Of a stretch of DNA of 64,000 nt, positions 1-64,000 are shown in pieces; within the stretch, counting starts at the first letter, position 1; every line of letters starts with the position of its first letter. The notes beneath the pieces are model-generated. The model had not been told where the DNA came from. It saw only the letters and a list, made by a program, of their open reading frames with translations, and did no database searches. Both the position numbers and the translations under genes were made by a program. The stretch spans positions 494,501 through 558,500 of the forward strand of contig NC_087075.1 in NCBI RefSeq assembly GCF_026151205.1, in the 5' to 3' direction. The DNA is from Bolinopsis microptera. Taxonomy: Eukaryota; Ctenophora; Tentaculata; Lobata; Bolinopsidae.

Positions 1-2
1 TA

Positions 3-578
3 GATGCTACAAAACTATCCTCTGCTCATCAAGAAGCACATGTATTTCACTATCCTGGTGGCATTGCAAACGGTATCAATGAACGCTTCCACTCAGATGA
101 AAGAAAGAGGTCAATTGATGCAAATAATGTGAAGACCATCGTACTCATGTGTGGAACTAATGATGTGGACTTAATCCTAGAGAGTCCTCGACACATGAGG
201 AATAGATTATTGTCACCCGATGAGTTCACAGGAAAAGCAAAGGCCCTTGATAACACCAATCGCTCTATTGATAATCTGATCCAGTCACTTCACTCGTGGG
301 CTCCAGCTGCAAAAATTAAGATCATAAACATTTTACCAAGAGAAAGTTTTGCTAGAAATAAAGTGATAAATGACATCAATATCTTTTTATCTAAGATTCC
401 TTCCAAATACTCGTTTGTTAGCTTTATACCCACAGAGAAGAATCGATTTTTGTTTAGTGATAGATCTGGATTTAGGAAATCATCTTGTTTTAGTAGATTT
501 GGGGAAGACAATGTGCATCTAAACAGCGATGGTATCTTTAAACTAGCAAAGCACATCAAGTACCATGCTCACCATTGA
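3..578 (+). CDS. AS-LINE ORF1, C-terminal SGNH/GDSL hydrolase domain (partial, type B)
   Basis: This is the C-terminal 191 codons of ORF1, open from the window edge to a TGA at 576-578. It shows the SGNH block III signature GTND (153-164) and a block V D-x-x-H (Asp 507-509, His 516-518), followed by the family ending KYHAHH. The nucleophile block and the AlkB domain would lie to the left of the window. SGNH esterases in ORF1 are established for CR1-like LINEs, where they may act on lipids or membranes; the substrate here is unknown. By eye the protein is only about two-thirds identical to ORF1 of the copy at 59 kb, although the following ORF2 is nearly identical. The frame is intact, so ORF1 may be functional apart from the unseen 5' part. 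Confidence 0.85.
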   Translation, partial: DATKLSSAHQEAHVFHYPGGIANGINERFHSDERKRSIDANNVKTIVLMCGTNDVDLILESPRHMRNRLLSPDEFTGKAKALDNTNRSIDNLIQSLHSWAPAAKIKIINILPRESFARNKVINDINIFLSKIPSKYSFVSFIPTEKNRFLFSDRSGFRKSSCFSRFGEDNVHLNSDGIFKLAKHIKYHAHH

Positions 579-713
579 AATCGACATGACATTTCCACCT
601 GAATATTTATTTTGATTTCAAGTTTAAAACTTTTCTATTGAAAATATTTACAGGCGGATAATTTTCACCTGATTTTAGTTTAATCAGACACAACGACCAA
701 CACGTTTTGTGAA

Positions 714-4438: not shown

Positions 4439-5707
4439 CCCAAAATTTCCCTCCCTTCCCCTTTAGGAAAACTTAAAAAATACTTTTTCGGCAAGAATCC
4501 CTGATTAATGGAAGAGAAAAAAAATTTTCACCGGCATCAATATGGGGTTTCGGAAAAAACACTCCCAACTTATTTTATGTAGATTGTGGCGAAATATATA
4601 TGAGTAAATCTAAGTCTTATAAACCGGAATCATCTTTTTGTCTTAAAAAGGGCCCTTTGACCAGTGAATCATGAAATATTGCTTAAAAAATTGGCAATTT
4701 TTGGGAAATTGTTGGCATTTCTTTAACCTGGTTTAAAAACCTTACTTGTAGATATAGCACTAGGTCAATGGCAAATAAACCATTTTTAGAAGTTTGGGGT
4801 GGTGTTTTCCCCAAGGGAACATCATTGGGTTTTATTTAGTATCTTATAAAAGAATATTTTTCCCGTAACCCATCTAAGCCCCTTTTTTTTTGCGATATGT
4901 GAATTCTTTGATCAACCCGCGAGCATTTATAAACAGAAAAAACTTATGCAAAACTTTAAAAAGGCTCGTGTAAATAAATACACTCAATGAAAAGAAGATG
5001 AATTCTTTGTTTGATTCTGTATCAAGATAATTAAAAATTGAATGAAAGAGGTAAAATTTCACAATAAGGGTGCAAAGAACAAAATTTTTGGCCCCTTTTA
5101 GTAGTAAAATTTAAAAATTTAAAGCCCGTAGATTATATTTTAGGAAGGTATGAAAGAATTGGGCCATGTATAGAAATAAGCACTGTACCCCTTTAAAAAT
5201 AGGAAAAAGTTTTCCAATGCATCTGTTGCCACAATTCCCATTTTTTAGCCGATCTATGTAGAGTGGCAAGACAAAACTTGCTGACTTTACACTTGTACAA
5301 AAAAAGGGAGCCAAAAAAGCTTCAAGTTCCACAAACAGAGAGCACCCCTTTTGTTTTAGAGCATGAATGGTTAAACCCTTTGACGACCAAATCCATCGTC
5401 AAATTATATGTTTAGAATATCCATGACAAAGTCCTACAAACTTTTTTGAACAAATTAGTTACAATAGGAGGTGTAGGAAAGGGGGAAAGGCAAACCCTTA
5501 TGGTTTTAAAAGATCAAAAATCCATAAAAATTTTAATACTTGGGGGGAAAAAGTTGGAAAAATTTCAAAAGATCTACGAAATTGCCCCCATGTTAAAAGC
5601 TTTGGATTCAATAAAAAAAGTACTCCATTAACAAAGACCCTTAAATTTTAAACCCTCGACAAATTTATAGACAAAATTTTTCATGCAAAATTTGTCGACG
5701 TAAAATA
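4439..5707 (+). pseudogene. AS-LINE ORF2, reverse transcriptase half, unreadable frame
   Basis: Homology to the intact ORF2 resumes directly after the TIR element (compare GGAAAACTTAAAAAATACTT with GGAAAACTTATAGAATACTT) and can be followed to the stop region near 5707. The frame is broken many times and the FADD active-site segment around 4890 is destroyed. Most differences turn mixed sequence into A, T, G or C runs (for example CAAACTTTTCAT has become AAAAAATTTTCA). That is unusual for neutral decay and suggests consensus or gap-filling artefacts. Confidence 0.75.
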
Positions 5708-6570
5708 AGTATTTCTATTTTTTAAATTTGAGCATATATAATTGATGTATCGAAAGGATTTTCCTTTTTTTCCCCCTTCCATTTTGATTGATTTTTCGCT
5801 GATGACTGTTTTGGCTGGGGAAAGGGTTTGACAGTGGTATTTTTTTAAACCCCTTTTAAATTTTTTATATTATACTGGTGGTAGTTTTTTAGAACATTTA
5901 ATTTATTTACTTTTATATAGTATTTTTTTTGGTGATGTATCACCCATTTTTAAATTTGATAATTGGACGTTTTTTGGGCACTTGATGAATGTTATTTTAA
6001 TTTAATTTATTTCTAGATATTTTATTTATTTTTCAACAGACACAGCTTCCCGTTTTTTTTTTTATATTAGTTACTAATTCTTTTAAGACTTTTTACAAGG
6101 ACATTTCAGTTTGGGTCTCCCCTTAGGGATTCATTATGCATCTAAATTATTTCACTTGCATTAGGTTTAGAAATTTTTTTGGTTTAAAATTTCAAATTTT
6201 AAATTTAAATTTTTAGTATGACAGTAAGGGATATAAGAAGTTATTTAATTTTGCTTGGGTTTATATTGATATTGGTTTAAAGTGATATGGAATTTGAATT
6301 TTTATTTTAAATTTTTAAAATGTGGTTGGGCTTTTTCATGTAAATTTGGGTTTTACTCCCCATATATCTATTATTTTTATTTGGGACGATTTTTATTTTT
6401 CTTAGGAAATGTTATTTATTCAATTTGGCTTTAGGTAGGGGGGGCCCCCCAAAAAAAAACTGGTTCTTTCAGGAAGCATCCCTTGCACGACCCTTTGGGC
6501 TCATATATATATTAAATTAAATTTAAACCCTTATTCTGTATGTGCACGAAAAAATTTTTTTTCATCAATT
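5708..6570 (+). other. AS-LINE copy 1, 3' UTR
   Basis: This segment aligns with the 3' UTR of the copy at 63418-64000 and with 33190-34110. Shared landmarks are the GCATATATAATTGATGTATC block near 5735-5755, the GTGATGTATCACCC block near 5932, the AGGAAGCATCCC block near 6471 and the terminal TCTGTATGTGCACGAAAA near 6535-6552. The LINE match ends about 6570. Homopolymers are expanded throughout. Confidence 0.7.
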
Positions 6571-8774: not shown

Positions 8775-9660
8775 TTGTGTTTTTGATTGAAATAAATTTT
8801 CGTGCACATACAGAAAGAATGGTTAAATTTAATATTAGTAGACCAAGCTCTGTCACGGGATGCTTCTGAAGAATCCCGTTTCTTTTAGCGGGGGCCCCCC
8901 AAAAACCAAAATTTAGATATAATAAACATATTCCCAGGGAAAATAGAAATCGTACCAAACAATAATATGATATATAGGTAGTAACCATATTTCTATGCAA
9001 AAAAGCCCAAAATCTAGTGTAAAATTTATAAAAATTCAAATTCCATACCACCCCTAAAACCCCCAAAATCAAAACAAAAAAAAAAAACCCAAACAAATTA
9101 AATAATTTTATATACTTCTACACAATTAAATTAAAAATTTGAAATTTTTAACGAGAATTTAAAATTTTTAAACCCAATGCAAGTGAAATAATTTAGATGC
9201 AATAAAGAAACCTATATGAGTATCATCTGTCAAAGTCCTTGTAGAACAGTTTACAAGAATATGGTAAATAATATAGAAGGAAAAAAAAACAGGAAGTTGT
9301 GTCTGTTGGAAAAAAATAAAATTTCTAGTATAAAAAATTAGAATATAAAATAACATTCGGTGAAAGTGTGTATAAACTGTACAATTTTAAATGTTAAAAC
9401 TGTACTGGGTGTCGGGCACCAAAAATAAAAAATAAATAAGTTATAAATTAAATGGGTCTGTAAAACTCCCACTAGGAAAATAGGCAAAAAAATTAAAAGT
9501 GGTTAATAAAATCCCACTGTGCGCCCCCTTTCCCATTAAAACAGTCACCCATGTGCAGAATCAATCAGAATGGAAGGTGGTAAAAAAGGGAAATCCTTTG
9601 ACCTTAAATTTATATATGTCGATTAAAAGAAATAAAAGATACTTGTTATGTTTTAGTTTT
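8775..9660 (-). mobile_element. 5'-truncated AS-LINE fragment, 3' UTR only
   Basis: Read on the minus strand, this is the AS-LINE 3' UTR. It begins near the ORF2 stop (about 9655) and runs to the terminal block whose complement TTTTCGTGCACATACAGAAA lies at about 8800. The shared landmark GGGATGCTTC (8858-8867) matches the complement of the other copies. No ORF2 coding sequence remains, so the insertion was truncated almost exactly at the end of ORF2. It lies tail to tail with copy 1. Confidence 0.75.
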
Positions 9661-28439: not shown

Positions 28440-30062
28440 CATTACAATTGAGCTATCGAAGGGAATTCTGTCTAAATTCCCCGCAACGGCTCTTGTCCTA
28501 CTGATAAATGTTTCAATTGTTAAACTTATTAAGAGGAATGATAGTCTTCGTCGGCAAATTTCTTTTCTCTATAAACAATTATCAGAAGTGACAGTGCACT
28601 CAAAGTTCCCCTCAGCGATGGTTCCACTTATCCTGTGTTGCCCCAGGAACCTGTCCACTGTGATCTGTCTAACAATGTTCCCTCAGTATATGTCTCTCGC
28701 ATCTTGTTTGAGTTAACCCAAGAGCTATCCAAATTAGCAGAAGAAGTGAAACATTCAGCAGAAATTTTCCAATTTGGAAAATTCCCAAACTCTGTAAATG
28801 TGACAAGATGTGACCATCTCTATCAATCCATACCAAGATTTGAGTTCGAGGAGTTTTCAGTTTGTTGTCACTCGCCAAGTTAGATATAGAAACCCACTAT
28901 ACTCATAAGTGTGTGAGAATAGGCAGTTGCATAATCGGGGGCTTTCCCTACGCTTACAATGGAGGCTTTCATAACACAAGGCCAGTAGCAGACAACCATA
29001 CCTAAAGTCTAGTTTAGGACGCTTACGCTCACAGTTCCCAAAATGGAAGTCAATAGTGCTATGATTACCAAGTATAGAAAATGGTCAGCAAGGAATTCCC
29101 TTTCACTCGGATGGTCGAGATGGTCAATTTCACCAGGCTTTGAATCCCACCATTCTCTTTGGGTAACTAGTTCCTAAGCTTCAGATCCCAAAACTTAGAG
29201 CTCATATTGGCTGACCTCACCTTCCCATGGTGGAATAATGAATATGACCAGACAATCCCAGGACAGCTTTGAACACAGCCTCTTCCTGGACAGTCTGATA
29301 CCATGCGAAGAATAAGCTACTCTGCGCCTAATGATGGCAGCGCAACCTTATCTACTCTGTCTGATAGTTTCCAGTCAAGTTAAGAACACTGTTAACTCGG
29401 CCCCTAAGACTAGATCAATAGAACATTCTGGAACAATCTTGTGTGTTTACTGAGCTCTGTATGTTCTCCAAATTAGATGGGAGGGAAATAAGCTTCGTCC
29501 AAACATATGAGGCGCATGTATTCAGCTTTACCTGGTGCCAGCCAATGCATTTCAATGATCGGTTTCAATCAGGATGCAAGAAAAGGACACTCTACGACCA
29601 ATCATGGACAAAGCATTGTACTTAGTGTGGTACAAATGGGACCGTGGACCTATACTGAACAGCCTCGCAAACATGAGGACTAAACTTCTGTGCCCTGATA
29701 GTTTTCTGTGATGCTCTTTAGAGCTCTTGGACGTTACAAAAACCAATTGTATTGAAAAACTTGTTACTTTTCCTTCACAAGTGGGCCACCTGGAGCTGTT
29801 ATTAAAATTGTCAACTTATTACTGGGAGAGGTTTCTCAGAAACAAGGTCTATACAACAACTGATATCATTGAGTGTATTTCAAATCTGCAAAGAAAATAC
29901 CCTATGTAAATAGCTCTCAACCGAGACAATTCGTTTCTTGTTTAGTGATAAGAAAGGCTTTAGAATTTCGTAATTTAGTAGTTATGGAGAGGATAATGTC
30001 CATCTCATGATGATGGCATAGTTATATTAGCAAGCCATCTTGACGTATCATGCACACATTAG
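28440..30062 (+). pseudogene. AS-LINE ORF1 copy 3: coiled-coil-like N-terminus, AlkB, SGNH
   Basis: About 28450-28620 reads with an open frame including LIKRNDSLRRQISFLYKQLSE, a heptad-like helix. After a frame change, 28635-28850 gives an acidic and helical stretch (ILFELTQELSKLAEEVKHSAE) that runs into the start of the AlkB region (KFPNSVN). AlkB homology follows at about 28850-29340 and SGNH at about 29430-30062, ending near ATCATGCACACAT. Multiple frameshifts break the protein. The copy shows that a full ORF1 begins well upstream of AlkB with a predicted coiled coil, as in many LINE ORF1 proteins. Confidence 0.75.
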
Positions 30063-30212
30063 CATACTGCTGAATACTGACATAACACTCCTACATCAGT
30101 TTGATTTTTTACGTACGACATCCAGACAAAATACAACCTGCTTTTATTCTGTTTTTTAGTTTAAAACACAACTTTACAACTTTTATTCATTCCATTGTGA
30201 ATTAATAAGATT

Positions 30213-33190
30213 ACAAGGACAAATATTATTAATGCTGCTGATAGGTTCACATCCTCTGCATTTGGTCATTGAATTCAAGGAGGGATTCTCAATTTAGCCT
30301 ATTAGTAATGAACTTCCCAACTTAGTAGTGTCATAAATTAGACATACTTTCCCTAAATGAGCTGAATCTTAATGTTACTTATTGACACTGGACACCATAA
30401 AATATTCCTTCTCTTAACCTTATGCGATGCGGAAAGGGCCATAACAGTTCTAGGGGTGGTGTAGCTTTAATGATAAACAAAAACTAGCTTTACACAGAAT
30501 TTAGTTATGGATAGAATTGCTTGATAACCATTGAAGGCATGATGGGTGAAGCTTTAGAATTGCAAGCTCAATGTTTGCTGCTTCTATCGCTCTGGATATT
30601 ATTGCAGTGTTGATAACTTTATTGAATACATTCATTTTTGCATGAAAAAATTGTATGGGAAAAAGGTTATCTGGGATTGGGGATATAAACATGACACAAG
30701 ACTATATCTCATCAACCAGTTACAGAAAATTAGATATGACTTGTGATGTTACAATCTAGTTCAAAACAATTCAAGGGTTAACTAGTGTTGCTAAAGTGGA
30801 GACAAATGTTACCCCAGATACTATTGAGGTAAATATTCACTAACTGTTATGCAGATTTTTGTCCAATCTTCTGTTCTTGTTGACGTATGAGCTCATCAAG
30901 CTATTATGTGTGAGATAGATTGTAAAAGTAACCTATAGTCCTAAATTTGAGAAGGTTGAAAATTAGAAATCTTGTAAACGTAAGGTTAAACAATTCTTAG
31001 ACTATCTAGACACCGTTTCTGATTCAGTCCATATTGGAAAGTACAGTTGTTGAAGCTTATCACAGCTGGCCTTTGTAATCATATTTGAACAGGCATATGC
31101 AGCCTTCTTCCCTTGCAAGACCAAAGAAGGCATTGAAAAGTTATACATAAAACTTTATGAACTTTTATCTTGCCATTAATTCATACTCATTTTCTTCTAA
31201 AAGACATTCCGTAAAGAAGGTTAAGAGTGACAATGGAATGCAATATAATGTGGTTACATGTAGCAAAGTATAAAGTGGTAATGAGGCTGGGCTTGTACAA
31301 GATTCAGAGAAATATTAGAAATAAATTTAGCTAAACCTGCAAAAAGGCTAATGTAAATCGATGATCTACAAGTTAAAAAGTGCCAAGATGATCTTAAAGG
31401 ATAGGAAAACTATCAATGGCATCAAATAGGACCCTGGTACAACTAATTGTCAAACTATCAATGAGAATGATCTGAGCTATTTAACTTTCAATTTTGCAAA
31501 TGTTGGATCAAGATTACAAAATCAGGCCCCCACTATTGAAAGGAGTTAGTTTTGACTGATTTTTTACTCTAGAACTTCTCATATCTCATTTGATTGATTC
31601 CAAGAAATAAATGAAACTGTATCCTAATGTATGTCGAAATCGCTCAGCATGACAAGGCCTCATGTGACAATGTGCCCTCTATTTTTCACGTAAGCAAGGC
31701 TGTACCACACATAGTAGAGCACGGCACCACATTGTCAATCTGATCCTTAATACAGGTGTTGTACCAACCCTTTGTAAAAAAGCTAGAGTACTCCATCCTT
31801 AGTCATGGAATGAAAAGTGATCCTAATATTTACAGGCCAATATCCATCCTTCACTTGTTTTTTTTTTAGGAAAACTTATAGAATACTTTGCGGCAAGCAA
31901 ACTCACTGATTAAGGGAAGAGAACAAACCTTTTCATCAGGCATCAATATGGCTTTCGGAAAAATCTCTCACAAAATTATTGATGTACGATCTGGATGGAC
32001 GAAATTTATATGAGTAACTCTAAGTATTATAAACCAGGAATCACCCTTTCTTGATCTTAGAAGGCTTTTGACACAGTGAAATCATGAAATATGCTCAAAA
32101 TTGGCATATTATGGAATTGGAGGCATTGCTTTAACCTGGTTGTTTAGAATTCTTATCTTGTAGATATCAATGCACTAAGGTAATCAATGGCAATCTAAGC
32201 TCATTTTAGAAGTTCTGAGTGGTGTACACAAGGAAGCATCATTGGGCCTATATATTTAGTATCTTCATAAAATGACCTCATTATGCCTGTAACCTATCTA
32301 AGCCTTTCTATTTGCAGATGTTGGTGCACTATTCTTTGATTCAAACCTGCTGAAGCACATTTTAAACATGAAAATGAACTTATGACAATCTTTAAATAAT
32401 GGCTCAGTGTATAAAGATCTTCATGAAAGAAGATGAAAATTCCTATTGTTTTGATTCTGTTGACCATCATGATGAAATAACCATTGATTGTAAGGAGGTA
32501 ACTTTACAAATCAAGGGGTGCAAAGAGGACAATATCTTGGGCCTCATTCTTGATAGTAATTAAACTTCCAAAAGCCATGTAGATTATTTTATTGGAGGTC
32601 ATGAAGACGAATTGGAGCCAGGTAAGAAGTATAGCCACTGCTACCCATTTAAATATAGGAAAATGTTGCCCAATCGCAACTAATGTTGCCACAAATTCGA
32701 TTATTTAGACACGATATGATTGTAGAGTGAGCAAGACGAAACTTGCTGAACTGTCATCTGTACTAAAAGGTAGCCAAAATAGTCTCATCGTTCCAAAAAC
32801 AGAGAGCAGCTTAATGGTTTATAGAGACAATGAAATGGTTACCACTCCATCTTAGACGACAACTCCTTCTGTCAAATTATGTTTAGAATCATCCATGACA
32901 ATGTCCTCAAACTTTATGAACACATTTAGTTACATATCAGGAGGTAGAGGAGCGGCGAAAGCTGCATCCTTTATGTCAATAGCTCAACATCACATAATAA
33001 TCTTTCAATTCTTGGGGCAAATGTTGGGAATATGTTCCAAAAACAGATCTACGGAATCTGCCCGTTGGTAAAAGCTGTAGTTGTTTCGTATAGATAACAG
33101 CTTACTATTCATCTAGAACATAGACCTAATTATACGTCGACAATTTCATATGACAATTTTTTACACTGCATCTTAGTCGCCGATAACTAG
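30213..33190 (+). pseudogene. AS-LINE ORF2 copy 3 (endonuclease and RT), frameshifted
   Basis: Full-length homology to the 991-codon ORF2 with dozens of single-base indels. The start codon has become AAGGACAAAT. The reverse transcriptase box reads FADV rather than FADD (about 32308-32325). The match continues to the stop region at about 33190. The remaining sequence is close to the intact copy wherever indels are ignored, which argues for either a very recent copy with sequencing errors or an unusual indel-biased decay. Confidence 0.8.
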
Positions 33191-34110
33191 TAACTTCAAA
33201 AATTCTTTTATTGAGGCATATAGAATTGATGTATCAGAAAAAGATATTCCTTTTTTTACCTTACCACTTCTGATTGATTTTGCACTTGGACTGAATGTTT
33301 TAACTGGAGAAAGGGTTCCCAACAGTTGGGAGTTTGATAAACACTTTATATTTATTGAACCTATTATACTTAGTGGTAGTTTTATAGACCCAACATTTAC
33401 AATTTTATTTAAACTTACATACTTTGTTTTTTTTTGGTGACTGTATCACCCAGTTTTTAACATTTGATATGGTACAGTTTATTGACGGTCACATTGACAG
33501 AATGGTTTGTTATATTCTAATATAATATTCTAGTTATTTTATTTATTTACAACAGACGACAACTTCATGTTTTTTCTTCTTATATTAGATACTCTATCTC
33601 TTGTACAGACTTTTTTTACAAGGTACATGGAACAAATGATACTCAAATTTAGGCATTATTATGCCTAAATATTTCACTTGCATTAGGCTTAGTAATTTAT
33701 TCTTGGTCTACAGATGTTCAAATGTTTATTAATTGTTGTATGAAGTAAGGTTATAACGAGGTTATTTTAATTTGCTTGGGTATTATATTGGACTAGGTAT
33801 TGAGGTTTAATGATGATAATGATTTGATTTCTATTTAAAATTACACTATGTGGTTGGGGCATTTTGCCATAGTAAAATATGGTTTACTACTCATATTATC
33901 ATATTATTGATTGGTATTCGATTTCTGATTATTTCTCTAGGGATATGATTATTTTATCTCATTTGGCTTTAGGTAGGGTGCCGCTAAAAGAACGGATTTT
34001 CAGGAAGCATCCCGTGCACAGTGCTTGGTCTACCTATATATTTAAATTATTAAACCATTCATTTCTGTATGTGCGCGAAAATTTATTTCAATCAAACTCT
34101 TCAGCCAAAT

Positions 34111-34845: not shown

Positions 34846-35829
34846 ATGTTTTTGATTGACATAAATTTTCGTGGCACATACAGAATGAAATGGTTAATAA
34901 TTTAATATTTATGTAGACCAAGGTTGTGCACGGGATGCTTCCTGGAAGAATTCATTTCTTTTAGCGGGGCACCCTACCTAAAGCAAAATTGAGTTTAATA
35001 ATTATATTCCTAGAGAAATATCAAACTCGAATACCAATCAAATCAATTATGATATATAGGAGTTAGTAACCATATTTACCTATGCAACATGCCCACCCCC
35101 ATATAGTGTAAATTATATAGAATCAACTTCCATCTTCCATCATTAAACTCTCGTCAATATAATAGAATGCAACATTAAATCACTTCTTTATACCTTCTGT
35201 CATACACCACCAACAAACCCATTCTCAACATAACACCTATACAACATACAAATCCTACATCATATCCCACCAAAATCTTCACCATCATTCACCATATATA
35301 AACAAATACACATTCAATAACAAATTATACCCCTCTCAATATAACAAACACAATAATAAAAACCCACACACAAAGCGCACAGCTCTCTACTAATCCTTAT
35401 TTAACAAATTAAATATCAACTATCTATACACCTCCACCATATCTAAACAAACCAATTCAATGATTTCGACAATAACACTTCTCCACATAAATCACAAATG
35501 ATAAAAACAGTGACTGATCACACACGTCAACCACCCCCATACCACCACTACCTCACTCCGCAATAAATAAGTACATAAAATTAAAAGTGGTGACTATACA
35601 ACTACCCAAGCTTAAAACTAGGTCATCTCTCTTCTCTTCTCGCCTCGCCTCTAGTCTCTCACCTACACTGTGCGACCCTTCTCCAGTTAAAACATGTCAG
35701 TACATTGTGCAACATCCAATCAAAATGTAAAGGTGGTAAAAAAGGGGCAAATCTTTCGATACATCAATTATATATGCCTCAGATTTATAAGAAATAGGTC
35801 CAGATACCTTAGTAATCGTCGACTATGGA

Positions 35830-38800
35830 TTGCAGTGTAAAATTTGTCATATGAATTGTCGCGGTATAAAATATGAGTCTGTTGTCATAGTTGAGAGTAA
35901 GCTGTTTACTTATAAGAATCATAACAGCCTTTTAACATTCGGGCAGATTTCGAAGAATCTGTTGGAATCATTTTCAAACATTTTGCCCCCAAGTATTGAA
36001 TGTTTTTATGTGTGATTATTGATCTATTAAAAATATTCATGGGACGTCCAAATGAAAATACCCTGGACAACAGATCGTATGGGGCTTGCCACCCCCCATT
36101 GACACATTAACAATATATCGACTCGATACTCGTTCTTCCCTGTTAATATTAAACACGTTAAAAATGAACTGGGATCTGGCACTACTAAACCTTAGTCGAT
36201 AAAATATGTACAGTAATTGTATAACTAGGACTTAAGTAAAGTCTGGAAAGAATATCGAAAACAAAATATATACGTGCTAGAAAGCTAATAATAAAACTGA
36301 CCAAAGAATCGTTAATCGTGATATAAAAGTTGTTCCAAAACGATCAAAGGGGAAAGTGAATAAGATCACGGGGACGAGGTAACATGCATAAGGAATTACA
36401 AGGTTGGCCTCACACACAATTTAATTACATGAAGTCAATTCTTACCTGTGAAATTGTGCCAGTGTTTAAGATGCACGCTGGTGACTGTTAATAATAAATT
36501 AGATGTCTATGTAAGTTTTTCTGTTCAAAATTCTGGTTGTATCAGTTTATCGATTTAATTTAATGTAACATCAGATAAATTCATTCACTACGGAGGAGGA
36601 TTTGCATATCCTATATAGTTCACCTACAAATATTCATATGAAGGTTTCCACAGGTACGTTGGTGGACGGTAGGAAAAGTGGACGACCTTTAAAAACTGAA
36701 ATCACGTCGTTTTGTCAAATAATTTAGTGTAGAAAAGGACTGTTCGTAATATAAAATGTCTAACTCAAGAAAAGTCGTAGATAAAATGCTAGAGTTTGTT
36801 GACTTTACAAATCTTCAACTCTACTGAGTAAAATAATCTTTGCAAATTATCTCGACAGTCTATGACTGATTTTAGGGGTAGTTAAATCATCCTCCTATCG
36901 ACTAGCATGTTTCAAGTGGGAACCACAGGGTCTTGTTTTTTTAAACTTGCAATGTAATGGTAATCTGCTCGTACCAGTATCGGAAATAGGTCAGCGACCT
37001 GAGAGGCATCAATCACTCCCATTGGGATACCAATTACCTGTCTGTAGATCACACTCGAAAACTTAAATAAACTATTATCCATTAACGAATTTAAACATAT
37101 CTATCGGTACTACATGTAAAAGACCACTTAGTCTTATTCAAACTCCGGCCATCTTGCCGAACTGGTCGTTGATTTTGATAAAATCAAGGGTTTCTTTCTA
37201 AAACATAATTTAATCAAGATGAAAATTCTCAATAGTTTATCATGGGGAGGTTGGTGTAAAAGTTTCTTAAAATCAAAACGATATACTGATTAGCGATCAG
37301 GTATTATTAGATAATATAAGTTTTGTAAAAAACAGGGGGGGGGAATATGTCACTTTGTCTTTATTGTTGGACAATTCCAATAACCAGAAGCGTCTAAGAA
37401 CTTAAAGTTAAAATTTTCTTGGTATTTTAAAGTAGGTACCAAGCAGTTTAAATACCCCATCAGATCTTAGAAAGAACTTTTGTGGATGATTTAAACCCCA
37501 GCTGCAATTACCTGAAATCCAGGTCGGTTTATGAATTTCGGCAACATATAGGTTGCAGCTTTCGGCCGGATCCTACTACCTCCTGATATGTAACTAAATT
37601 TGTTCATAAGTTTGTAGGAACAATTGTCATTTGGATGATTCTAAACATTTATTTGACAGATGGAGTTGTAGTCTAAGATGGAGTGGTACCCATTTCAGGT
37701 CTCTATAAACATTAAGCTGCTTCTCTGTTTGTGGAAACGTTGAGAGCTATTTGGCTACTTTTTGTACAGAGTGTCAGTTCAGCAAGGTTTCTTGTCGTGC
37801 CAGTCTACAATATGATCTGTCTAAATATGAATTGTGGCAACATGAGTGATTGGCAAACTCATTTCTCCTATATTTATGGGTAGCAGTGCTTTACTTCTAT
37901 ACATGGCACCAATCTCCTTCATGACTTCCTAATAATATAATCTACATGGCTTTTGTAAGTTAATTTACTATCTGAATGAGGCCACGATATTTTGTTCTCT
38001 TGCATCCTTGATTGTGAAAGTTACCTCATTACATTCAATGGTTTAATTCCATCATGTTGATCAACAGAATCAAAACACATAGGAATTCAGTCTTCTTTTC
38101 ATTGAGTGATAAATTTATTTAACACTGAGCCATTTAAAGATTGTTCATAGTTCTATTTTCATGTTTATAAATGTGATTCTGCAGGTTTGATCAAGGAATA
38201 GTGCACCATAATCTGCAAATACGAAAGGGTAGATAGGTTATCAGGATAAATGATGTCATTTATGAAGTACAAAATATATAGCCCAATGATGCTTCCTTGT
38301 GGTTACACACTCAGAACTTCTAAAACTGACTTATTTAGCCATTGATCTAGGGCATTGATATCTACAAGATAAGAAGTTCTTAAACCAGGTTAAAGCATTG
38401 CCACCAATTCCATAATATGCAGTTTTGAAGCAATATTTCATGATCACTGTGGCAAAGGCCTCTTAAGATCAAGAAAGAGGATTCCTGGTTTATAAGGACT
38501 TAGATTTACTATTTATATTTCGTCATCAGATCGTACATTCACTAAGTGTGGAGGTGATTTTTCAGAAAGCCAATGATGTCCGGATTGAAAAAGTTTGTTC
38601 TTTCCATGCTAATCAGTGTGTTGCTTGGCCGACAAAGTATTCTATAAGTTTTCCTACAAGTGGAAGGGATGGCTTATTGGCCTGTTAATTATTAGGATCA
38701 TCTTTCATCCTGCCTTATGGATGGGAGTTACTCTTGACTTTTTTACAAAGGGGTTGGTACCAACACCTTGGTATTAAGGCTCAAATTGACAATATGGGTC

Positions 38801-40325
38801 AGTGGCTCAACTATGTGTGTTTACAGCTTGCTTAGTAAAAATAGAGGCACTAGTCATATGAGGCCTTGTCATTCTGTGAGCGTTCGAATTACATTAGATA
38901 TCGTTTCATTTATTTCTTGGAATCTATCAAATGAGATGTTAGAAGTTCCTAGGAGGGTAAAAATCAGGTAAAATTAACTCTTTCATATTGGGTGGCCTGA
39001 TTTTGTAAATCTTGATCCAACATTTGCCAAAATGAAGTTAAATAGCTCAGGATCATTCTATTGATAGTTGACAATTAGTTGTACCAGGGGTCATTATTGA
39101 TGCCGTTTGATAGTTTTCCATACCCTTTTAAGATCATTCTTGGGCACTTTTACCTGGAAGATCATCCGAGTACATTAGCCTTTTTGCAGGTTTTAGCTAA
39201 ATTTATTTTCTAAATTTCTCTGATCTTGTTAGCAAATCCAGGCCTCATTTACACGTTATACATTTGCTACATAGACCCACATTTATTGCAATTTCCATTG
39301 TTCTCTCTTATCCTTCTTTTTACGAATTCTTTAAGAAGAAAATGTGTATGAGTAATGCTATTTAAAAAGTTCAGTAGAGGTTATGTATGTACTTGTAATG
39401 CCTTTCTATGGTCTTGCAGGGAAGCAGGTTGCTTTTGCCTGTTCATTATGATTGACAAAGGCCTGGCAGTGATGCTTAAACATGGTACTTTCCAATAGTG
39501 GACTGTAAATCAGAACCAGGTGTCTAGATAGTCTAAGAATTGTTTAACATTACGTTACCAATGATTTCTGAATTTCTACACCTTTTCAATTTAGGAGCGT
39601 TATAGGACTTTACAAAGCTATCTCACCACATAATAGCTTGATGATCCAATACGTTCATCAAGAACAGGGTAGATTGAACAAAATCTGCATAACAGTTAGA
39701 GAATAAATTACATTCAATAGTAGTCTGGGTAAAAATTGTCTCCACGTTTAGCAACTCTAGTTATCCCTTGAATGGTTTGAACTAGATTGTAAACATCTCA
39801 GGTTCTATCTAATTTTTTGTATGGGTGGATTGAGGATATTATTCTGGTCAATGTTTATTCCAATCCAGATAAACCTTTTTCCCGTTCAATTTTTTTCATG
39901 CAAAAATGAATAATGATTAACTCATAAAAGTGATCAACATGCAATAATTTCCAGAGGAGATAGAAGCAGCAAACATTGATCTGCTATTCTTAGCTTCACC
40001 ATAATGCTTCAATGTTATCAGCTTATCTCCCATAACCTAATTTCTGTGTAAGCTAGTTGTTTTGTTTATCATTTAAGCACACCACCCCTAGAACTGTTTG
40101 GCCTGTCGCCTCGCATGATGTAGAAGAGAGGAAAGAATAGTTATGTTGTCTGTGTCAATATGTATCATTAAAGATTCATTCTCATTAGAAGTATGTCTAG
40201 CGTATGATCTCGAATGGAGTTGATTAAGTCATTACTTTTAGCTTAATTTAGGAGACCCCTTGAATGTTACAGTGACCATGCAAAGGTTATGAAATTTGTC
40301 AGCTGAGTTGTGAATATTTGTCAAT
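35830..40325 (-). pseudogene. AS-LINE ORF2 copy 4, interrupted and frameshifted
   Basis: Homology covers the start (about 40325; ATG has become ATTG), endonuclease, cysteine cluster, reverse transcriptase and C-terminal domain. The frame has many indels. The active-site box reads FADY in place of FADD (complement near 38210-38225). The C-terminal domain is split by the 36036-37545 insertion at the GATCTATTGACATAAAGG site of the intact ORF2. Residual readable pieces include 38768-38971 on the opposite strand, which is only a shadow. Confidence 0.75.
36036..37545. mobile_element. 1.5 kb insertion inside AS-LINE copy 4, type unknown
   Basis: AS-LINE homology stops after TTGATCTATT (about 36030) and resumes at GGTTGCAGC (about 37550) with no ORF2 sequence missing, so the segment is an insertion. 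It contains no long frame. One short stretch near 36670-36700 translates to GRKSGRPLKT, a word seen near the helix-turn-helix of Tc1-like transposases. That is suggestive only. Terminal inverted repeats were not found. An unusual run of nine G lies near 37336. Confidence 0.45.
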
Positions 40326-40465
40326 TTCACAAATCGTGTTAGTCGTTGTGTTGATTAAACTAAATTCAGTGAAACATTATCCGCCTGTAAATATTCTTCA
40401 ATAAGAAAAGTTTTAAACTTGAAATCAAATTAAATATTCAGGTGGAAATGTCATGTCGATTCAAA

Positions 40466-42070
40466 TGGTGAGGCATGGTACTTGATGTTGCTTAGCTTGT
40501 TTAAATATGACCATCCGCTGTTTAGTTGCACACTTGGTCTTCCCCCAATCTATAAATACAAGATGATTCCTAAAATCCAGATCTTTCACTAAACAAAAAT
40601 TCGATTGTTCTCTTGTGGGTATAAAGCTAACAACCGAGTATTTCGGGAAGGAATCTTAGATTTAAAAAGATATTGATGTCATTTATCACTTTTATTTCTA
40701 GCATACTTTCTCTCTGCGTGAAAAATGTTTATGTCTGAATTTTTGCAGCTGGAGCCCGAGTGAGGACTGGTCAGATTATCAATAGAGCGATTGGTGTTAT
40801 CAAGGGCCTTTGCTTTTCCATGTGACACTATCGGGTGACAATAAATCTATTTCCTCATGTGTCGAGGACTCTCTGGATTAAGTACAATATTAGTTCCACA
40901 ATGAGTCGATGGTCTTCACATTATTTGCATCATGACCTCTTTCTTTCATCTGAGTGGAAGCGTTCATTGATACCGTTTTGCAAATGCCACCCCGGATAGT
41001 GAAATACATGTGCTTCTTTGATTGAGCAGAGGCATTGTTTTGTGCATCTAACTTGGAGAACATGCTGTGAGATAACATACACAGCAGGGGATTTGCTTTT
41101 GACCTGAAGCAGGGGGTATGGTGCTTTATGAGTGATTGTTGGTGATGATTTCCCTTTGATTGAGGTTCAGTTTCTTCTTACAGAATAACGAAAGGCTACT
41201 TGAGGTTTCGGGTGGAGGCAGACAAGGTTGCAGCCATCATTCTGCGCAGAGTAATGCTAAGTCTCATGTCATCAGTATGGTCCTGAATAGGCTGGTCAAA
41301 GCTTGTCCTGAGATTTTCTGGTTTCATAATCATTATGTCGCCATGGGAGAGAGTAAGATGGCAATGTGGGGCTTTTGCTTTTGATATCAATGAGACTCTT
41401 GTTGCTCCTACAACGATTTGTGGAAAAATCATGGCGCCTGGTGAGATGGACTCTCATCATCTGGATGGAATGGTATTCCTTGCTGCCATTTTAATCGTAG
41501 TGATCATGGCGCTGTTAAATTTCAGAACTGGGAGCTGGGAGCGTTAAACGTTCTAAAATAAGACTTTAATAAGGGTTTGTCAATTTACGGCTTTGTTGTT
41601 ATGGAAGCTCCTTGTAGGCAATAAGGGAAATTCCCCAAGTATTGCGAAGTCCGATTGTTAAACGTTGTGTGATTGGGTTTCCATATCCAACTTGAGTGTC
41701 TCAATACAAAACCGGATACACCTCGGACTCAAATCATGATATGGATTATGGACTTACCACAACGTTAACAATGTTGAAGATTGTTGTTAACATCTGTAGA
41801 ATTCACAAGAGATGGTTGCTATTAAGTTCAGTCACACTGCTAACTTCACAGTTTTGAGTTTTGCTTATGTTCAGAGTTAAGACACTGTCCCCGCAGAGAA
41901 TGGAACCGCATTTTGTCATGGCTGAGCCTTGGGTACGTTTGTTAGAACGAGCAATTTGTCTCTCAAATTGGTCGTTTTTCTAGATCTTAGTGATACACTG
42001 GTAGAACATTTTGCTTTTGCACTGTTAGGTCTGTCACGAAGGCTGTAATTTCTGATATGGATACCGACAT
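40466..42070 (-). pseudogene. AS-LINE ORF1 copy 4: N-terminus, AlkB and SGNH (type B)
   Basis: On the minus strand a plausible ATG lies at 42070, followed by MSVSISEITAFVTDLTVQKQ. A basic and polar helix similar to the copy 3 N-terminus (KNDQFERQIARSNKR) follows after a small frame break. AlkB homology spans about 41780-41190 with the readable piece 41432-41196, which keeps VGATRV, LSHGDIM and the RLSITLR end carrying the R-x5-R signature. SGNH follows from 41085 (SMFSKLD) to about 40466. Stops and indels break the frame, including in the HxD segment. This second, diverged ORF1 with the same domain order shows AlkB is a constant part of the family. Confidence 0.75.
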
Positions 42071-58975: not shown

Positions 58976-60286
58976 TTGTTTATTATTATTATCAATATCA
59001 ATTTGGAAAATCCCAAACACTCTGTAAATGGTGACAATGATGTGACCAACTCTATCAATCCATACCAAGATTTGAGTCGAGGAGTTTTTCAGTTTGTTGA
59101 CACTGCCAAGTTAGATATAGAAACCCACTATACTCATAAGTTTGAGAATAGGGCAGTTGCATATTACGGGGACTTTCCCTACGCTTACAATGGAGGCTTT
59201 CATAACACAAGGCCAGTAGCAGACAATCCATACCTAAAGTCTATTTTAGAACGCTTACGCTCACAGTTCCCAAAATTGAAATTCAATAGTGCTATGATTA
59301 CAAAGTATAGAAATGGTCAGCAAGGAATTCCCTTTCACTCGGATGACGAGAGGTCAATTTCACCAGGCTCCATGATCTCCACCATCTCTTTAGGGGCTAC
59401 TAGAGTCCTAAGCTTCAGATCCAAACTTAGAGCTCATATTGCTGACCTCACCCTCTCCCATGGTGACATAATGAATATGACCAGACAATCCCAGACCAGC
59501 TTTGAACACAGCCTCATCCAGGACAAGTCTGAAACCATGAGAATAAGCATTACTCTGCGCCTAATTGATGGCAGCGCAACCTTATCTACTCTGTCTGATG
59601 TTTCCAGTCAAGTTAAGAACACTGAACCCTCGGCCCCTAAGACTAGATCAATAGAACATTCTGGTAAATCTTTGTGTGTCTACATTAGCTCTAGTATGTT
59701 CTCCAAATTAGAGGGAGAAAAGCTATCGTCCAAACATCATGAGGCACATGTATTCAGCTACCCTGGTGCCACAGCCAATGCAATCAATGAACGGTTTCAA
59801 TCAGATGTAAGAAAAGACACTCTTAATACCAATAATGTGAAAAGCATTGTACTTATGTGTGGTACAAATGACGTGGACTCTATCCTGAACAGCCCTCGCA
59901 ACATGAGGACTAAACTTCTGTGCCCTGATAGTTTTTCTGGTGATGCTAGAGCTCTTGACTTTACAAACAATTGTATTGAAAAACTTGTACTTTTCCTTCA
60001 CAAGTGGGCACCTGGAGCTGATATTAAAATTGTTAACTTATTACCTCGGGAGAGTTTCTCCAGAAACAAGGTTATAACTGATATCAATGAGTGTATATCA
60101 AATCTGCAAAGAAAATACACCTATGTAAAACTGCTCTCAACCGAGACAAATCGTTTCTTGTTTAGTGATAAGAAAGGCTTTAGAAAATCGTCATTTTTTA
60201 GTAGTTATGGAGAGGATAATGTCCATCTCAATGATTATGGCATAGTTAAATTAGCAAGGCACTTGAAGTATCATGCACACCATTAG
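58976..60286 (+). CDS. AS-LINE ORF1: AlkB dioxygenase plus SGNH hydrolase (5'-truncated)
   Basis: The frame is open from 58925 and is given from 58976 (TTG); there is no ATG before the AlkB core, because the true N-terminus was lost at about 58999. Numbering from 58976, residues about 20-200 are an AlkB-type 2OG/Fe(II) dioxygenase: metal ligands H121-x-D123 (FHSDDE) and H178 (FEHSL), the TISLGATRVLSFR strand pair, SHGDIM, and R189-x5-R195 for 2-oxoglutarate. AlkB enzymes oxidatively remove alkyl groups from DNA or RNA bases. Residues about 232-436 are an SGNH hydrolase: candidate nucleophile in ISSSMFSKL (238-240), G296-T297-N298-D299, and D414-x-x-H417. All key residues are present. A role in repairing or demethylating element RNA or cDNA is inference. 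The spacer to ORF2 is 155 bases. Confidence 0.85.
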   Translation: MFIIIININLENPKHSVNGDNDVTNSINPYQDLSRGVFQFVDTAKLDIETHYTHKFENRAVAYYGDFPYAYNGGFHNTRPVADNPYLKSILERLRSQFPKLKFNSAMITKYRNGQQGIPFHSDDERSISPGSMISTISLGATRVLSFRSKLRAHIADLTLSHGDIMNMTRQSQTSFEHSLIQDKSETMRISITLRLIDGSATLSTLSDVSSQVKNTEPSAPKTRSIEHSGKSLCVYISSSMFSKLEGEKLSSKHHEAHVFSYPGATANAINERFQSDVRKDTLNTNNVKSIVLMCGTNDVDSILNSPRNMRTKLLCPDSFSGDARALDFTNNCIEKLVLFLHKWAPGADIKIVNLLPRESFSRNKVITDINECISNLQRKYTYVKLLSTETNRFLFSDKKGFRKSSFFSSYGEDNVHLNDYGIVKLARHLKYHAHH

Positions 60287-60441
60287 AATACTGCTGAATA
60301 CTGACATAACACTCCTACCATCAGTTTTATTTTTACAGTACGACATCCAGACAAATACAACCTGCTTTTATTCTGTTTTTTAGTTTAAACACAACTTTAC
60401 AACTTTTATTCATTCCATTGTGAATTAATAAGATTCACAAG

Positions 60442-63417
60442 ATGACAAATTTTAATAATGCAGCTGATAGGTTTCACAACCTCTGCATTGGTCATTGTAA
60501 CATTCAAGGAGGGCTTCTCAATTTAGCTAAAAGTAATGAACTTTCCCAACTTATTAGAGATCATAAATTAGACATACTTTCCCTAAATGAGATGAATCTT
60601 AATGATACTATTGACACAGACACCATAAATATTCCTTCCTCCTTCAACCTTATGCGATGTGACAGGCCAAACAGTTCTAGGGGTGGTTGTGGCTTAATGA
60701 TAAACAAAAAACTAGCTTACACAGAATTAGTTATGGATAGTAAGCTTGATAACATTGAAGCATTATGGGTGAAGCTTAAGAATAGCAAGATCAATGTTTG
60801 CTGCTTCTATCGCTCTGGAAATTATTGCAGTGTTGATAACTTTATTGAATACATTCATTTTTGCATGAAAAAATTGAATGGGAAAAAGGTTATCTGGATT
60901 GGGGATATAAACATTGACCAGAATAATATCTCATCCACCCAGTACAAAAAATTAGATATGACCTTGAGATGTTACAATCTAGTTCAAACCATTCAAGGGA
61001 TAACTAGAGTTGCTAAACGTGGAGACAATGTTACCCAGACTACTATTGATGTAATATTCACTAACTGTTATGCAGATTTTGTCCAATCTTCTGTTCTTGA
61101 TGAACGTATTGGAGATCATCAAGCTATTATGTGTGAGATAGATTGTAAAGTACCTATAGCTCCTAAATTTGAGAAGGTTGAAATTAGAAATCATTGTAAA
61201 CGTAATGTTAAACAATTCTTAAACTATCTAGATACCTGTTCTGATTACAGTCCACTATTGGAAAGTACAGATGTTGAAGCTATCACAGCTGGCCTTTGTC
61301 ATCATATTGAACAGGCATATGCAACCTTCTTCCCTTGCAAGACCATAGAAAGGCATGAAAAGTTCATACATAAACCTTCTACTGAACTTTTATATGCCAT
61401 TAATCATACACATTTTCTTCTAAAGAAATTCCGTAAAAAGAAGGATAAGAGAGACAATGGAAATTGCAATAAATGTGGTACATGTAGCAAATGTATAAAG
61501 TGTAATGAGGCCTGGGATTGCTACAAGATTCAGAGAAATATTAGAAATAAATTAGCTAAAACCTGCAAAAAGGCTAATGTAATCGATGATCTACAAGTTA
61601 AAAGTGCCAAGAATGATCTTAAAGGGATATGGAAAACTATCAAACTGGCATCAAATATGACCCCTGGTACAACTAATTGTCAAACTATCAATGAGAATGA
61701 TCCTGAGCTATTTAACTTTCATTTTGCAAATGTTGGATCAAGATTACAAAATCAGGCCCCCAATATTGAAAGAGTTAGTTTTACTGATTTTTTACCTCCT
61801 AGAACTTCTAATATCTCATTTGATAGATTCCAAGAAATAAATGAAACTGATATCCTAATGTATGTCGAAACGCTCAAGAATGACAAGGCCTCATATGACA
61901 ATGTGCCTCTATTTTTACTTAAGCAAGCTGTACCACACATAGTTGAGCCACTGACCCACATTGTCAATCTGAGCCTTAATACAGGTGTTGTACCAACCCT
62001 TTGTAAAAAAGCTAGAGTAACTCCCATCCATAAGGCAGGAATGAAAGATGATCCTAATAATTACAGGCCAATATCCATCCTTCCACTTGTAGGAAAACTT
62101 ATAGAATACTTTGTCGGCAAGCAACTCACTGATTACATGGAAGAGAACAAACTTTTCATCCGGCATCAATATGGCTTTCGGAAAAATCACTCCACAACTT
62201 ATCTGATGTACGATCTGATGGACGAAAAATATATGAGTAAATCTAAGTCTTATAAACCAGGAATCATCTTTCTTGATCTTAAGAAGGCCTTTGACACAGT
62301 GAATCATGAAATATTGCTTCAAAAATTGGCATATTATGGAATTGGTGGCATTGCTTTAACCTGGTTTAAGAACTTCTTATCTTGTAGATATCAATGCACT
62401 AGGATCAATGGCAATCTAAGCTCATTTTTAGAAGTTCTGAGTGGTGTACCACAAGGAAGCATCATTGGGCCTATATTATTTAGTATCTTCATAAATGACA
62501 TCATTTATGCCTGTAACCTATCTAAGCCCTTTCTATTTGCAGATGATGGTGCACTATTCTTTGATCAAACCTGCAGAAGCACATTTATAAACATGAAAAT
62601 AGAACTTATGACAATCTTTAAATGGCTCAGTGTTAATAAATTATCACTCAATGAAAAGAAGACTGAATTCCTATTGTTTGATTCTGTTGACCAACATGAT
62701 GAAATAACCATTGATTGTAATGAGGTAACTTTCACAATCAAGGAGTGCAAAGAGACAAAATATCTTGGCCTCATTCTAGATAGTAAATTAAACTTCAAAA
62801 GCCATGTAGATTATATTATTAGGAAGGTCATGAAGAGAATTGGTGCCATGTATAGAAGTAAAGCACTGCTACCCATTAAATATAGGAAAATGTTTGCCAA
62901 TGCACTCATGTTGCCACAATTCGATTATTTAGACACGATCTATTGTAGAGCTGGCAAGACAAAACTTGCTGAACTTGACACTCTGTACAAAAAGGTAGCC
63001 AAAATAGCTCTCAACGTTCCAAAAACAGAGAGCAGCCTTAATGTTTATAGAGACATGAAATGGTTACCACTCCATCTTAGACGACAACTCCATCTGTCAA
63101 ATTATATGTTTAGAATCATCCATGACAATTGTCCTACAAACTTTATGAACAAATTTAGTTACATATCAGGAGGTAGTAGGAGCGGCGAAAGCTGCAACCT
63201 TTATGTCAATAGATCAACATCACATAAAAACTTTCAATACTTGGGGGCAAAATGTTGGAATAATGTTCCAACAGATCTACGAAATCTGCCCGATGTTAAA
63301 AGCTTTAGTGATTCGTATAAGAAACAGCTACTATCATCTATAACAACAGACCCTAATTATACCGTCGACAATTCATATGACAAATTTTACACTGCAATCA
63401 TAGTCGCCGATAACTAA
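60442..63417 (+). CDS. AS-LINE ORF2: EEP endonuclease and reverse transcriptase, intact
   Basis: Complete 991-codon frame from ATG 60442 to TAA. Residues 10-235 form the EEP (APE-like) endonuclease that nicks target DNA: N20 in HCNIQGG, E50 in LNEMNL, D155 and N157 in GDINID, and D225-H226 in GDHQ. Residues 342-360 form a six-cysteine cluster (C342, 345, 348, 351, 354, 360). The reverse transcriptase spans about 520-760 with RPISILP, QYGFRKNHST, FLDLKKAFDTV, SGVPQGS and the catalytic F699-A700-D701-D702. After it come LGLILDSKLNF and a C-terminal domain (W-L-P-L-x-x-R-R ... KCWNNVP). Domain order and motifs fit the CR1/L2 part of the Jockey superfamily and target-primed reverse transcription. 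No RNase H was seen. The frame is uninterrupted, so this copy may be young. Confidence 0.92.
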   Translation: MTNFNNAADRFHNLCIGHCNIQGGLLNLAKSNELSQLIRDHKLDILSLNEMNLNDTIDTDTINIPSSFNLMRCDRPNSSRGGCGLMINKKLAYTELVMDSKLDNIEALWVKLKNSKINVCCFYRSGNYCSVDNFIEYIHFCMKKLNGKKVIWIGDINIDQNNISSTQYKKLDMTLRCYNLVQTIQGITRVAKRGDNVTQTTIDVIFTNCYADFVQSSVLDERIGDHQAIMCEIDCKVPIAPKFEKVEIRNHCKRNVKQFLNYLDTCSDYSPLLESTDVEAITAGLCHHIEQAYATFFPCKTIERHEKFIHKPSTELLYAINHTHFLLKKFRKKKDKRDNGNCNKCGTCSKCIKCNEAWDCYKIQRNIRNKLAKTCKKANVIDDLQVKSAKNDLKGIWKTIKLASNMTPGTTNCQTINENDPELFNFHFANVGSRLQNQAPNIERVSFTDFLPPRTSNISFDRFQEINETDILMYVETLKNDKASYDNVPLFLLKQAVPHIVEPLTHIVNLSLNTGVVPTLCKKARVTPIHKAGMKDDPNNYRPISILPLVGKLIEYFVGKQLTDYMEENKLFIRHQYGFRKNHSTTYLMYDLMDEKYMSKSKSYKPGIIFLDLKKAFDTVNHEILLQKLAYYGIGGIALTWFKNFLSCRYQCTRINGNLSSFLEVLSGVPQGSIIGPILFSIFINDIIYACNLSKPFLFADDGALFFDQTCRSTFINMKIELMTIFKWLSVNKLSLNEKKTEFLLFDSVDQHDEITIDCNEVTFTIKECKETKYLGLILDSKLNFKSHVDYIIRKVMKRIGAMYRSKALLPIKYRKMFANALMLPQFDYLDTIYCRAGKTKLAELDTLYKKVAKIALNVPKTESSLNVYRDMKWLPLHLRRQLHLSNYMFRIIHDNCPTNFMNKFSYISGGSRSGESCNLYVNRSTSHKNFQYLGAKCWNNVPTDLRNLPDVKSFSDSYKKQLLSSITTDPNYTVDNSYDKFYTAIIVADN
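61465..61521 (+). other. Six-cysteine cluster between endonuclease and RT
   Basis: Codons 342-360 of ORF2 read C-x2-C-x2-C-x2-C-x2-C-x5-C (within CNKCGTCSKCIKC...WDC). Copy 1 retains most of it (1737-1800). The spacing differs from the CCHC knuckles at the C-terminus of many LINE ORF2 proteins. It may bind zinc and nucleic acid; that is inference. Confidence 0.75.
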
Positions 63418-64000
63418 GTAACTTCTAATTCTTTTAAATCTGAGGCATATATAATTGATGTATCGAAAAGATATTCCCTTTTTTACCACCTTACCATTCT
63501 GATTGATTTTGCACATGACTGACATGTTTTAACTGGAGAAGGGGTTCCCACAGTGGTAGTTTTATAAACCACTTTTAATTTATTGACCTATTATACTTAG
63601 TGGTAGTTTTATAGACCACATTTAATTTATTAACTTATCATACTTAGTATTTTTTTTTTGGTGACTGTATCACCCAGTTTTAACATTTGATAATTGTACA
63701 GTTTATTGACGACACATTGACTGAATGTTATTTTATATTCTAATTTATATTCTAGATATTTTATTTATTTTACAACAGACGACGACTTCCTGTTTTTTCT
63801 TCTATATTAGTTACTCATATCTCTTGTACAGACTTTTTTACAAGGACATTGACAAATGATACTCACATTAGGCATTCATTATTGCATCTAAATTATTTCA
63901 CTTGCATTAGGCTTAGAAATTTATTCTCTGGTCAACAGATTTCAAATGTTTAATTAATTTGTAGTATGACAGTAAGGTATATAAGAAGTTATTTAATTTT
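63418..64000 (+). other. AS-LINE copy 5, 3' UTR with 47-base tandem duplication
   Basis: After the ORF2 stop the 3' UTR shares landmarks with the other copies. It contains two adjacent 47-base units (63554-63600 and 63601-63647), each beginning TGGTAGTTTTATA and ending TACTTAG. The same duplication is visible in copies 1 and 3, so it belongs to the family. The 3' terminus lies beyond the window. Confidence 0.8.

Follow-up and report, generated by a model that had tools for sequence, protein, structure and literature searches.

The element and its two reading frames

The window (the whole 64,000-nucleotide stretch analyzed here, positions 494,501 to 558,500 of Bolinopsis microptera contig NC_087075.1) carries two consecutive open reading frames at 58976..63417, in an element that we refer to as copy D. 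A search of 5.8 billion proteins returned 226 relatives of ORF1; ORF1 counts written as n/120 refer to the best 120 of these 226, which may share source genomes or samples and are not independent. The features of copy D are as follows, with residues numbered within each ORF.

58976..60286, +: ORF1 as first read; element sequence starts near 58997, and the TTG and first codons are flanking DNA
59048..59572, +: AlkB-type Fe(II)/2OG dioxygenase domain, residues 25-199 (Pfam PF13532, ALKBH2/3 profile and fold matches)
59336..59344, +: H121-x-D123 iron ligands, each 120/120
59348..59350, +: E125 (H-x-D-x-E, four after the first His), 120/120, common to ALKBH2/3 by alignment
59507..59509, +: H178, third iron ligand, 120/120
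59540..59560, +: R189-x5-R195 (R189 120/120, R195 119/120)
59573..59656, +: unconserved linker, residues 200-227 (pLDDT < 50 at 206-227)
59657..60283, +: SGNH hydrolase domain, residues 228-436, with S240, G264, N298, D414 and H417 (Pfam, fold, conservation)
60442..63417, +: ORF2, 991 aa, APE-type endonuclease and reverse transcriptase (RT), catalytic residues intact
60499..61119, +: endonuclease catalytic residues N20, E50, D155, N157, D203, D225 and H226 (conservation in ORF2 relatives)
62032..62775, +: reverse transcriptase core (RVT_1, Pfam)
63418..64000, +: start of the 3' UTR; the element's 3' end lies beyond the window, and other copies reach a common 3' end

The original prediction had proposed that ORF1 fuses an AlkB dioxygenase to an SGNH hydrolase, a view now supported by profiles, fold and relatives. 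It had named a profile match and the predicted fold as tests: ORF1 matches 2OG-FeII_Oxy_2 (PF13532) at E=2.1e-18, and its predicted structure contains, by fold comparison, the AlkB-type double-stranded beta-helix, closest to ALKBH2/3. Both motifs used in PMC544882 to define the AlkB family, HxD...H and RxxxxxR, are present, and the residues picked out as a complete signature (H121, D123, H178, R189 and R195) lie at the numbers given and are conserved. The SGNH signature was also borne out, its named residues being in place, the catalytic set (S, G, N and D/H) conserved and the fold in agreement. Other profile matches were Lipase_GDSL_2, under the model's cut-off (E=9.7e-5), and an NCBIfam AlkB model far below its cut-off (E=0.0024), all NCBIfam matches of the two ORFs being of this sub-cut-off kind. 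Foldseek additionally aligned the ORF1 model with CE2-type acetyl xylan esterases over ~400 columns; with an rmsd of 18-19 Å, a shared two-domain architecture was not accepted.

ORF2 matched RVT_1 (E=2.1e-36) and an endonuclease family (E=3.6e-7) in Pfam and, far below the cut-off, a group II RT model in NCBIfam (E=5e-16); its sequence matches in the PDB were R2, L1 and prokaryotic RTs. The seven endonuclease residues listed above, which we take to be those of the APE catalytic motif, were identical wherever a letter was present (100 to 117 of the best 120 of 152 ORF2 relatives, the rest being gaps). RT residues D612, D618, D701 and D702 were each found in 119 of the same 120, with one gap. 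With an APE endonuclease and an RT in ORF2, the element is an APE-type LINE (non-LTR retrotransposon). The copies in the window are dispersed and share a common 3' end with variable 5' truncation, as in LINEs. As for target-site duplications, candidates are limited to 7-8-base matches beside two 3' pieces; the 3' end of copy D falls outside the window. In the 3' UTR a 47-base unit occurs twice in tandem (63552-63648, 90% matches), and tRNA and Rfam scans gave no matches. One ORF2 relative, P0186, comes from a MAG labelled as the bacterium Tenacibaculum; it is probably a eukaryotic sequence that entered the metagenome bin.

Full-length relatives and other copies

ORF2 had been described as intact, and this holds for its endonuclease and RT catalytic residues; ORF1 of copy D is 5'-truncated. 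Two relatives that are 98-100% identical to it (P0001 and P0003) extend further upstream, and in a tblastn search with P0003 the match to the window copy begins no earlier than P0003 residue 122, at position 58997 (99.7% identity). Searches with P0002, P0003 and P0004 (tblastn) found no match to the N-terminal part upstream of 58997. An intact full-length ORF1 was rejected for this copy, and a splice joining upstream frames, also considered, finds no support in these searches. Relatives of ~530-590 aa extend upstream, most of them carrying CxxC and a helix that resembles a leucine zipper (the zipper pattern being judged by eye); CxxC fell within the first 110 residues in 100 of 108 relatives of at least 500 aa, and later in 1/108. 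The model of full-length P0004 has a helix at 23-47 and a low-confidence stretch at 49-108, followed by AlkB and then SGNH. On the strength of these relatives and this model, the family ORF1p consists of an N-terminal CxxC/leucine-zipper helix, AlkB and SGNH, the zipper part having been lost from the window copy. The helix presumably serves self-association.

PF13532 was detected in 120/120 ORF1 relatives (best 120 of 226), and the alignment covered at least 90% of the query in 110/120. S240 and N298 were present in 120/120, G264 in 119/120 and H417 in 116/120 (3 gaps, 1 other); the AlkB and SGNH residue sets were both complete in 114/120. Median identity to the window ORF1 was 44% for the AlkB domain and 47% for the SGNH domain, and the linker between them has zero columns with 99% conservation. 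The SGNH region of P0004 as query gave 17 matches, all with PF13532 (17/17), in a search that covered only 429 candidates and may have missed AlkB-less relatives. With PF13532 in 120/120 (best 120 of 226) and 17/17, a chance fusion or annotation artefact was ruled out.

Three longest-contig values occur in both the ORF1 and ORF2 relative lists (203281, 5858 and 834619), which suggests that the two ORFs share contigs outside the window. The linkage there rests on these matching values because no family locus was confirmed in viral_contigs or genome_contigs, where 59 and 27 pattern matches, respectively, contained zero relatives by tblastn; records near the window's genome may be absent from both. 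The sole organism-named relative among the best 120 of 226 was P0060, a gene model of the ctenophore Mnemiopsis leidyi. This annotated protein is a chimera with ~400 residues of AlkB-SGNH ORF1, and P0007, of JGI origin, matches it across 399 residues with 98% identity. Two of the 120 relatives (best 120 of 226) bear the name 'AlkB'. Some 'AlkB' gene calls are thus LINE ORF1s, and gene models like P0060 may inflate AlkB gene counts.

Four further pieces of the family lie in the window:

1..6568, +: copy A, C-terminal part of ORF1 (SGNH) and ORF2, second ORF1 lineage; interrupted by an insertion at ~2342-4437
8783..9649, -: 3'-terminal family fragment (5'-truncated copy)
28440..34096, +: copy B (5' boundary approximate), decayed, ORF1 lineage of copy D; AlkB region and N-terminal part both kept, in shifted frames
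34851..42065, -: copy C, decayed, second ORF1 lineage, AlkB region present; interrupted at ~36029-37543

The order of the copy C pieces suggests that they form a single copy. Similarity between copies, measured in steps of 200 aligned bases, was 82%-98% across both ORFs for D and B. Copies D and C were 74%-94% alike in ORF2 and 54%-70% in ORF1 (70%-73% in BLAST-aligned pieces); copies A and D were 96%-99% alike in the first 1.6 kb of ORF2 and 62%-74% in ORF1, where A and C were 88%-90% alike. Similarity changes sharply at the start of ORF2 (~60450-60600), the ORF1 lineages D/B and A/C sitting on similar ORF2s. This we read as a probable ORF1 swap between two lineages that each have the AlkB-SGNH architecture. 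Past its insertion copy A is 64%-86% like copy D, so that there was either a second step or the two parts of A were never one copy.

Differences between D and A at codon positions 1/2/3 numbered 38/37/107 in SGNH and, for the first half of ORF2, 12/2/26, a pattern that marks purifying selection; in the AlkB part, D and C differ by 45/41/75. Differences between D and B were even over codon positions in both ORFs (AlkB 15/23/17, p=0.39; SGNH 21/26/27, p=0.68), as were those between D and C in ORF2 (67/56/67 and 41/46/48). B (both ORFs) and C (ORF2) therefore behave as dead copies, which give no sign of selection.

Other mobile DNA was also noted. The ~2.1 kb insert in ORF2 of copy A (2342-4437) has ~570-base terminal inverted repeats that are 81% alike, and is by its look a fold-back type DNA transposon. 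A ~1.5 kb insertion interrupts copy C (36029-37543), its flanks being contiguous in copy D (63206/63208). A hAT-family transposase is split over two ORFs at 51754-54212 (- strand), the first matching Dimer_Tnp_hAT (E=3.9e-10) and DUF4371 (E=1.6e-6) and the second having a weak zinc-finger match (E=0.0025).

Placement and possible role of the AlkB domain

Among proteins with solved structures, the family profile matched ALKBH3 at E=8.4e-26, ALKBH2 at 4.2e-23 and ALKBH5 at 0.066. The single window sequence matched ALKBH2 best (3.1e-13 vs. 1.8e-11), and by fold ALKBH2 and ALKBH3 were tied. The nearest AlkB paralogues are, by these profile and fold scores and not by a tree, ALKBH2/3; on the same basis, the domain did not come out nearest to ALKBH5, as in the orchid Gypsy element discussed below. 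This relatedness points to a putative N1-methyladenine/N3-methylcytosine repair activity of ALKBH2/3 type over m6A erasure. ALKBH2 acts on duplex DNA, so the likeness leaves RNA versus DNA undecided. Given the intact iron center, oxidative removal of alkyl marks by the domain is plausible. For the counter-defence function raised in the original prediction, the results offer neither support nor contrary evidence. One active-site position departs from the paralogues: ALKBH2/3 carry, by alignment, the Asn of N-x-Y where the ORF1 family mostly has Thr (position 109: T in 112/120, N in 5, S in 3; best 120 of 226). We take this Asn to match the 2OG-stabilizing N193-x-Y195 of ALKBH5 (PMC9289625); it is absent from the list of totally conserved AlkB residues in PMC544882.

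The reading that we prefer, which we hold about as probable as its negation, is a LINE family whose zipper-AlkB-SGNH ORF1p supplies repair of the template used in target-primed reverse transcription. ORF1p would multimerize on the element's RNA, the SGNH part would position the RNP at membranes or work as an esterase, and the AlkB part would oxidatively clear the template RNA, and perhaps the first cDNA strand, of methyl lesions on the Watson-Crick face (N1-methyladenine, N3-methylcytosine). Because m1A and m3C prevent base pairing and bring reverse transcriptases to a halt, the element would have reason to bring such repair with it, and an RNA-copying element would plausibly gain from an AlkB enzyme in its RNP. 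AlkB treatment is used for reading methylated RNAs (PMC8053708). In E. coli, methylated RNA phage regains activity through AlkB and ALKBH3, and for viral AlkB domains the favored role was to protect the viral RNA (both PMC544882). Against template repair weighs T109, which replaces the 2OG-contact Asn in 112/120 relatives (best 120 of 226; Asn kept in 5). To our knowledge, LINEs such as L1 manage without an AlkB domain, which we also count against it. The zebrafish ZfL2-1 ORF1p is a further argument against: its esterase showed no oligo-A RNA binding, and the protein boosts retrotransposition in HeLa cells yet is dispensable there, as described in PMC3905857.

Alternatively, the domain may erase m6A (or DNA 6mA) and so release the element's RNA, or newly inserted copies, from epitranscriptomic or epigenetic control by the host, a role proposed for the orchid element, whose ALKBH5-like ORF demethylates m6A in ssRNA in vitro (PMC9289625). 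L1 is affected by the host m6A machinery (PMC7873242), and N6-mA rises on young mouse L1s in an Alkbh1 knockout (PMC4982230). The family profile, however, scores ALKBH3 ~79 bits over ALKBH5 (94.0 vs. 15.1), and E125 stands at +4 in 120/120 (best 120 of 226). Moreover, in human cells m6A aids L1 and ALKBH5 suppresses it (PMC7873242), so erasure need not benefit a LINE, and we regard this role as unlikely. An ALKBH2-like use in DNA repair, applied during integration to the nicked target or to the first strand of cDNA, would fit the fold tie and the top match of the single window sequence (3.1e-13 vs. 1.8e-11); the profile slightly favors ALKBH3, and the domain sits in ORF1p, the presumed RNA packager (PMC3905857), and not in ORF2p. 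We hold this use to be improbable.

The fold might instead be mainly a nucleic-acid binding module replacing an RRM, with catalysis incidental. Esterase-type ORF1ps in RepBase are described as lacking a structural RNA-binding domain (PMC3905857), a gap that such a domain would fill, and T109 in place of the 2OG-contact Asn would be in keeping; but the iron ligands (120/120) and R...R (119/120; best 120 of 226) are not needed for binding alone, and we give the idea little credence. Hydroxylation or demethylation of other targets (protein, tRNA, lipid), with the host and not the element as substrate, draws on the versatility of the 2OG oxygenase superfamily; the closest solved-structure relatives are nucleic-acid demethylases, and we think it very improbable.

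A conserved, apparently catalytic demethylase in ORF1p suggests a testable role of RNA/cDNA methylation damage or marking in LINE copying, at a time when the roles of LINE ORF1 proteins are described as poorly understood (PMC3905857). The wider claim, that a broad and ancient class of animal LINEs encodes a nucleic-acid repair enzyme in ORF1p, with RNA-template demethylation built into target-primed reverse transcription, we put forward tentatively, as less probable than its negation; ORF1 proteins would in that case be repair and processivity factors, besides RNA chaperones.

Comparison with known systems

The SGNH part had been likened to the ORF1 of CR1-like LINEs, and the layout agrees: the esterase-type (type IV) ORF1 of zebrafish ZfL2-1, CR1 and L2 has an N-terminal coiled coil or zinc-finger/leucine-zipper, an SGNH hydrolase and a downstream APE/RT ORF2 (PMC3905857, PMC4120745). 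The coiled coil/zipper ahead of the esterase is present in full-length relatives and missing from the window copy by truncation. Here, in contrast, an AlkB domain sits between zipper and esterase, SSS mostly takes the place of GDS, and the likeness fails at H191, a transposon-specific His that in the ZfL2-1 class precedes the block III Asn by four residues (PMC3905857). The equivalent position, assuming an ungapped match over four residues, holds L in 58, M in 47, F in 14, C in 1 and His in 0/120 (best 120 of 226); with H191 missing in 120/120, the esterase may have been captured separately or have diverged. The ZfL2-1 esterase entry was not among the 48 sequence matches or the fold rows among the matches listed, and this absence is no proof. 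A 2014 survey of 448 CR1, L2 and Jockey elements (PMC4120745), whose main text mentions neither AlkB nor oxygenase, recorded esterase ORF1 solely in CR1 and L2 groups of vertebrates. Bdelloid LTR elements and Terminons with a GDSL ORF3 likewise show SGNH modules captured and swapped between retroelements, although there the GDSL lies in an extra ORF and not in ORF1; the word AlkB is absent from the main text of PMC5408684.

The AlkB domain shares with human ALKBH3 and ALKBH2 the fold and H-x-D-x-E...H...R-x5-R, and differs in lying inside a LINE ORF1p and in having Thr for the N-x-Y Asn in 112/120 (best 120 of 226). No LINE with AlkB appeared in titles or abstract starts among the matches listed in the open PMC literature; a description may exist in Repbase, Dfam or the subscription journals, most of which lie outside that literature. 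AlkB passages in PMC6015446 and PMC4982230 deal with the host enzyme ALKBH1. Plant RNA viruses, too, are selfish elements that pass through an RNA stage and bear AlkB domains, and RNA repair has been proposed for these domains (PMC544882). Viral AlkB domains are among the BFVD fold matches of the ORF1 domain, and plant RNA virus AlkB domains are, unlike it, part of viral replicases. We know of none of these replicases with the SGNH, endonuclease or RT of a LINE. Among the matches listed, the nearest prior description is the orchid Ty3/Gypsy element Gypsy_Pa_2799, a retrotransposon that likewise encodes an AlkB-family enzyme, but an LTR element of plants in which the enzyme is a separate extra ORF of the ALKBH5 clade with m6A activity (PMC9289625). 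The AlkB domain of this LINE family thus parallels those of plant RNA viruses and of the orchid LTR element.
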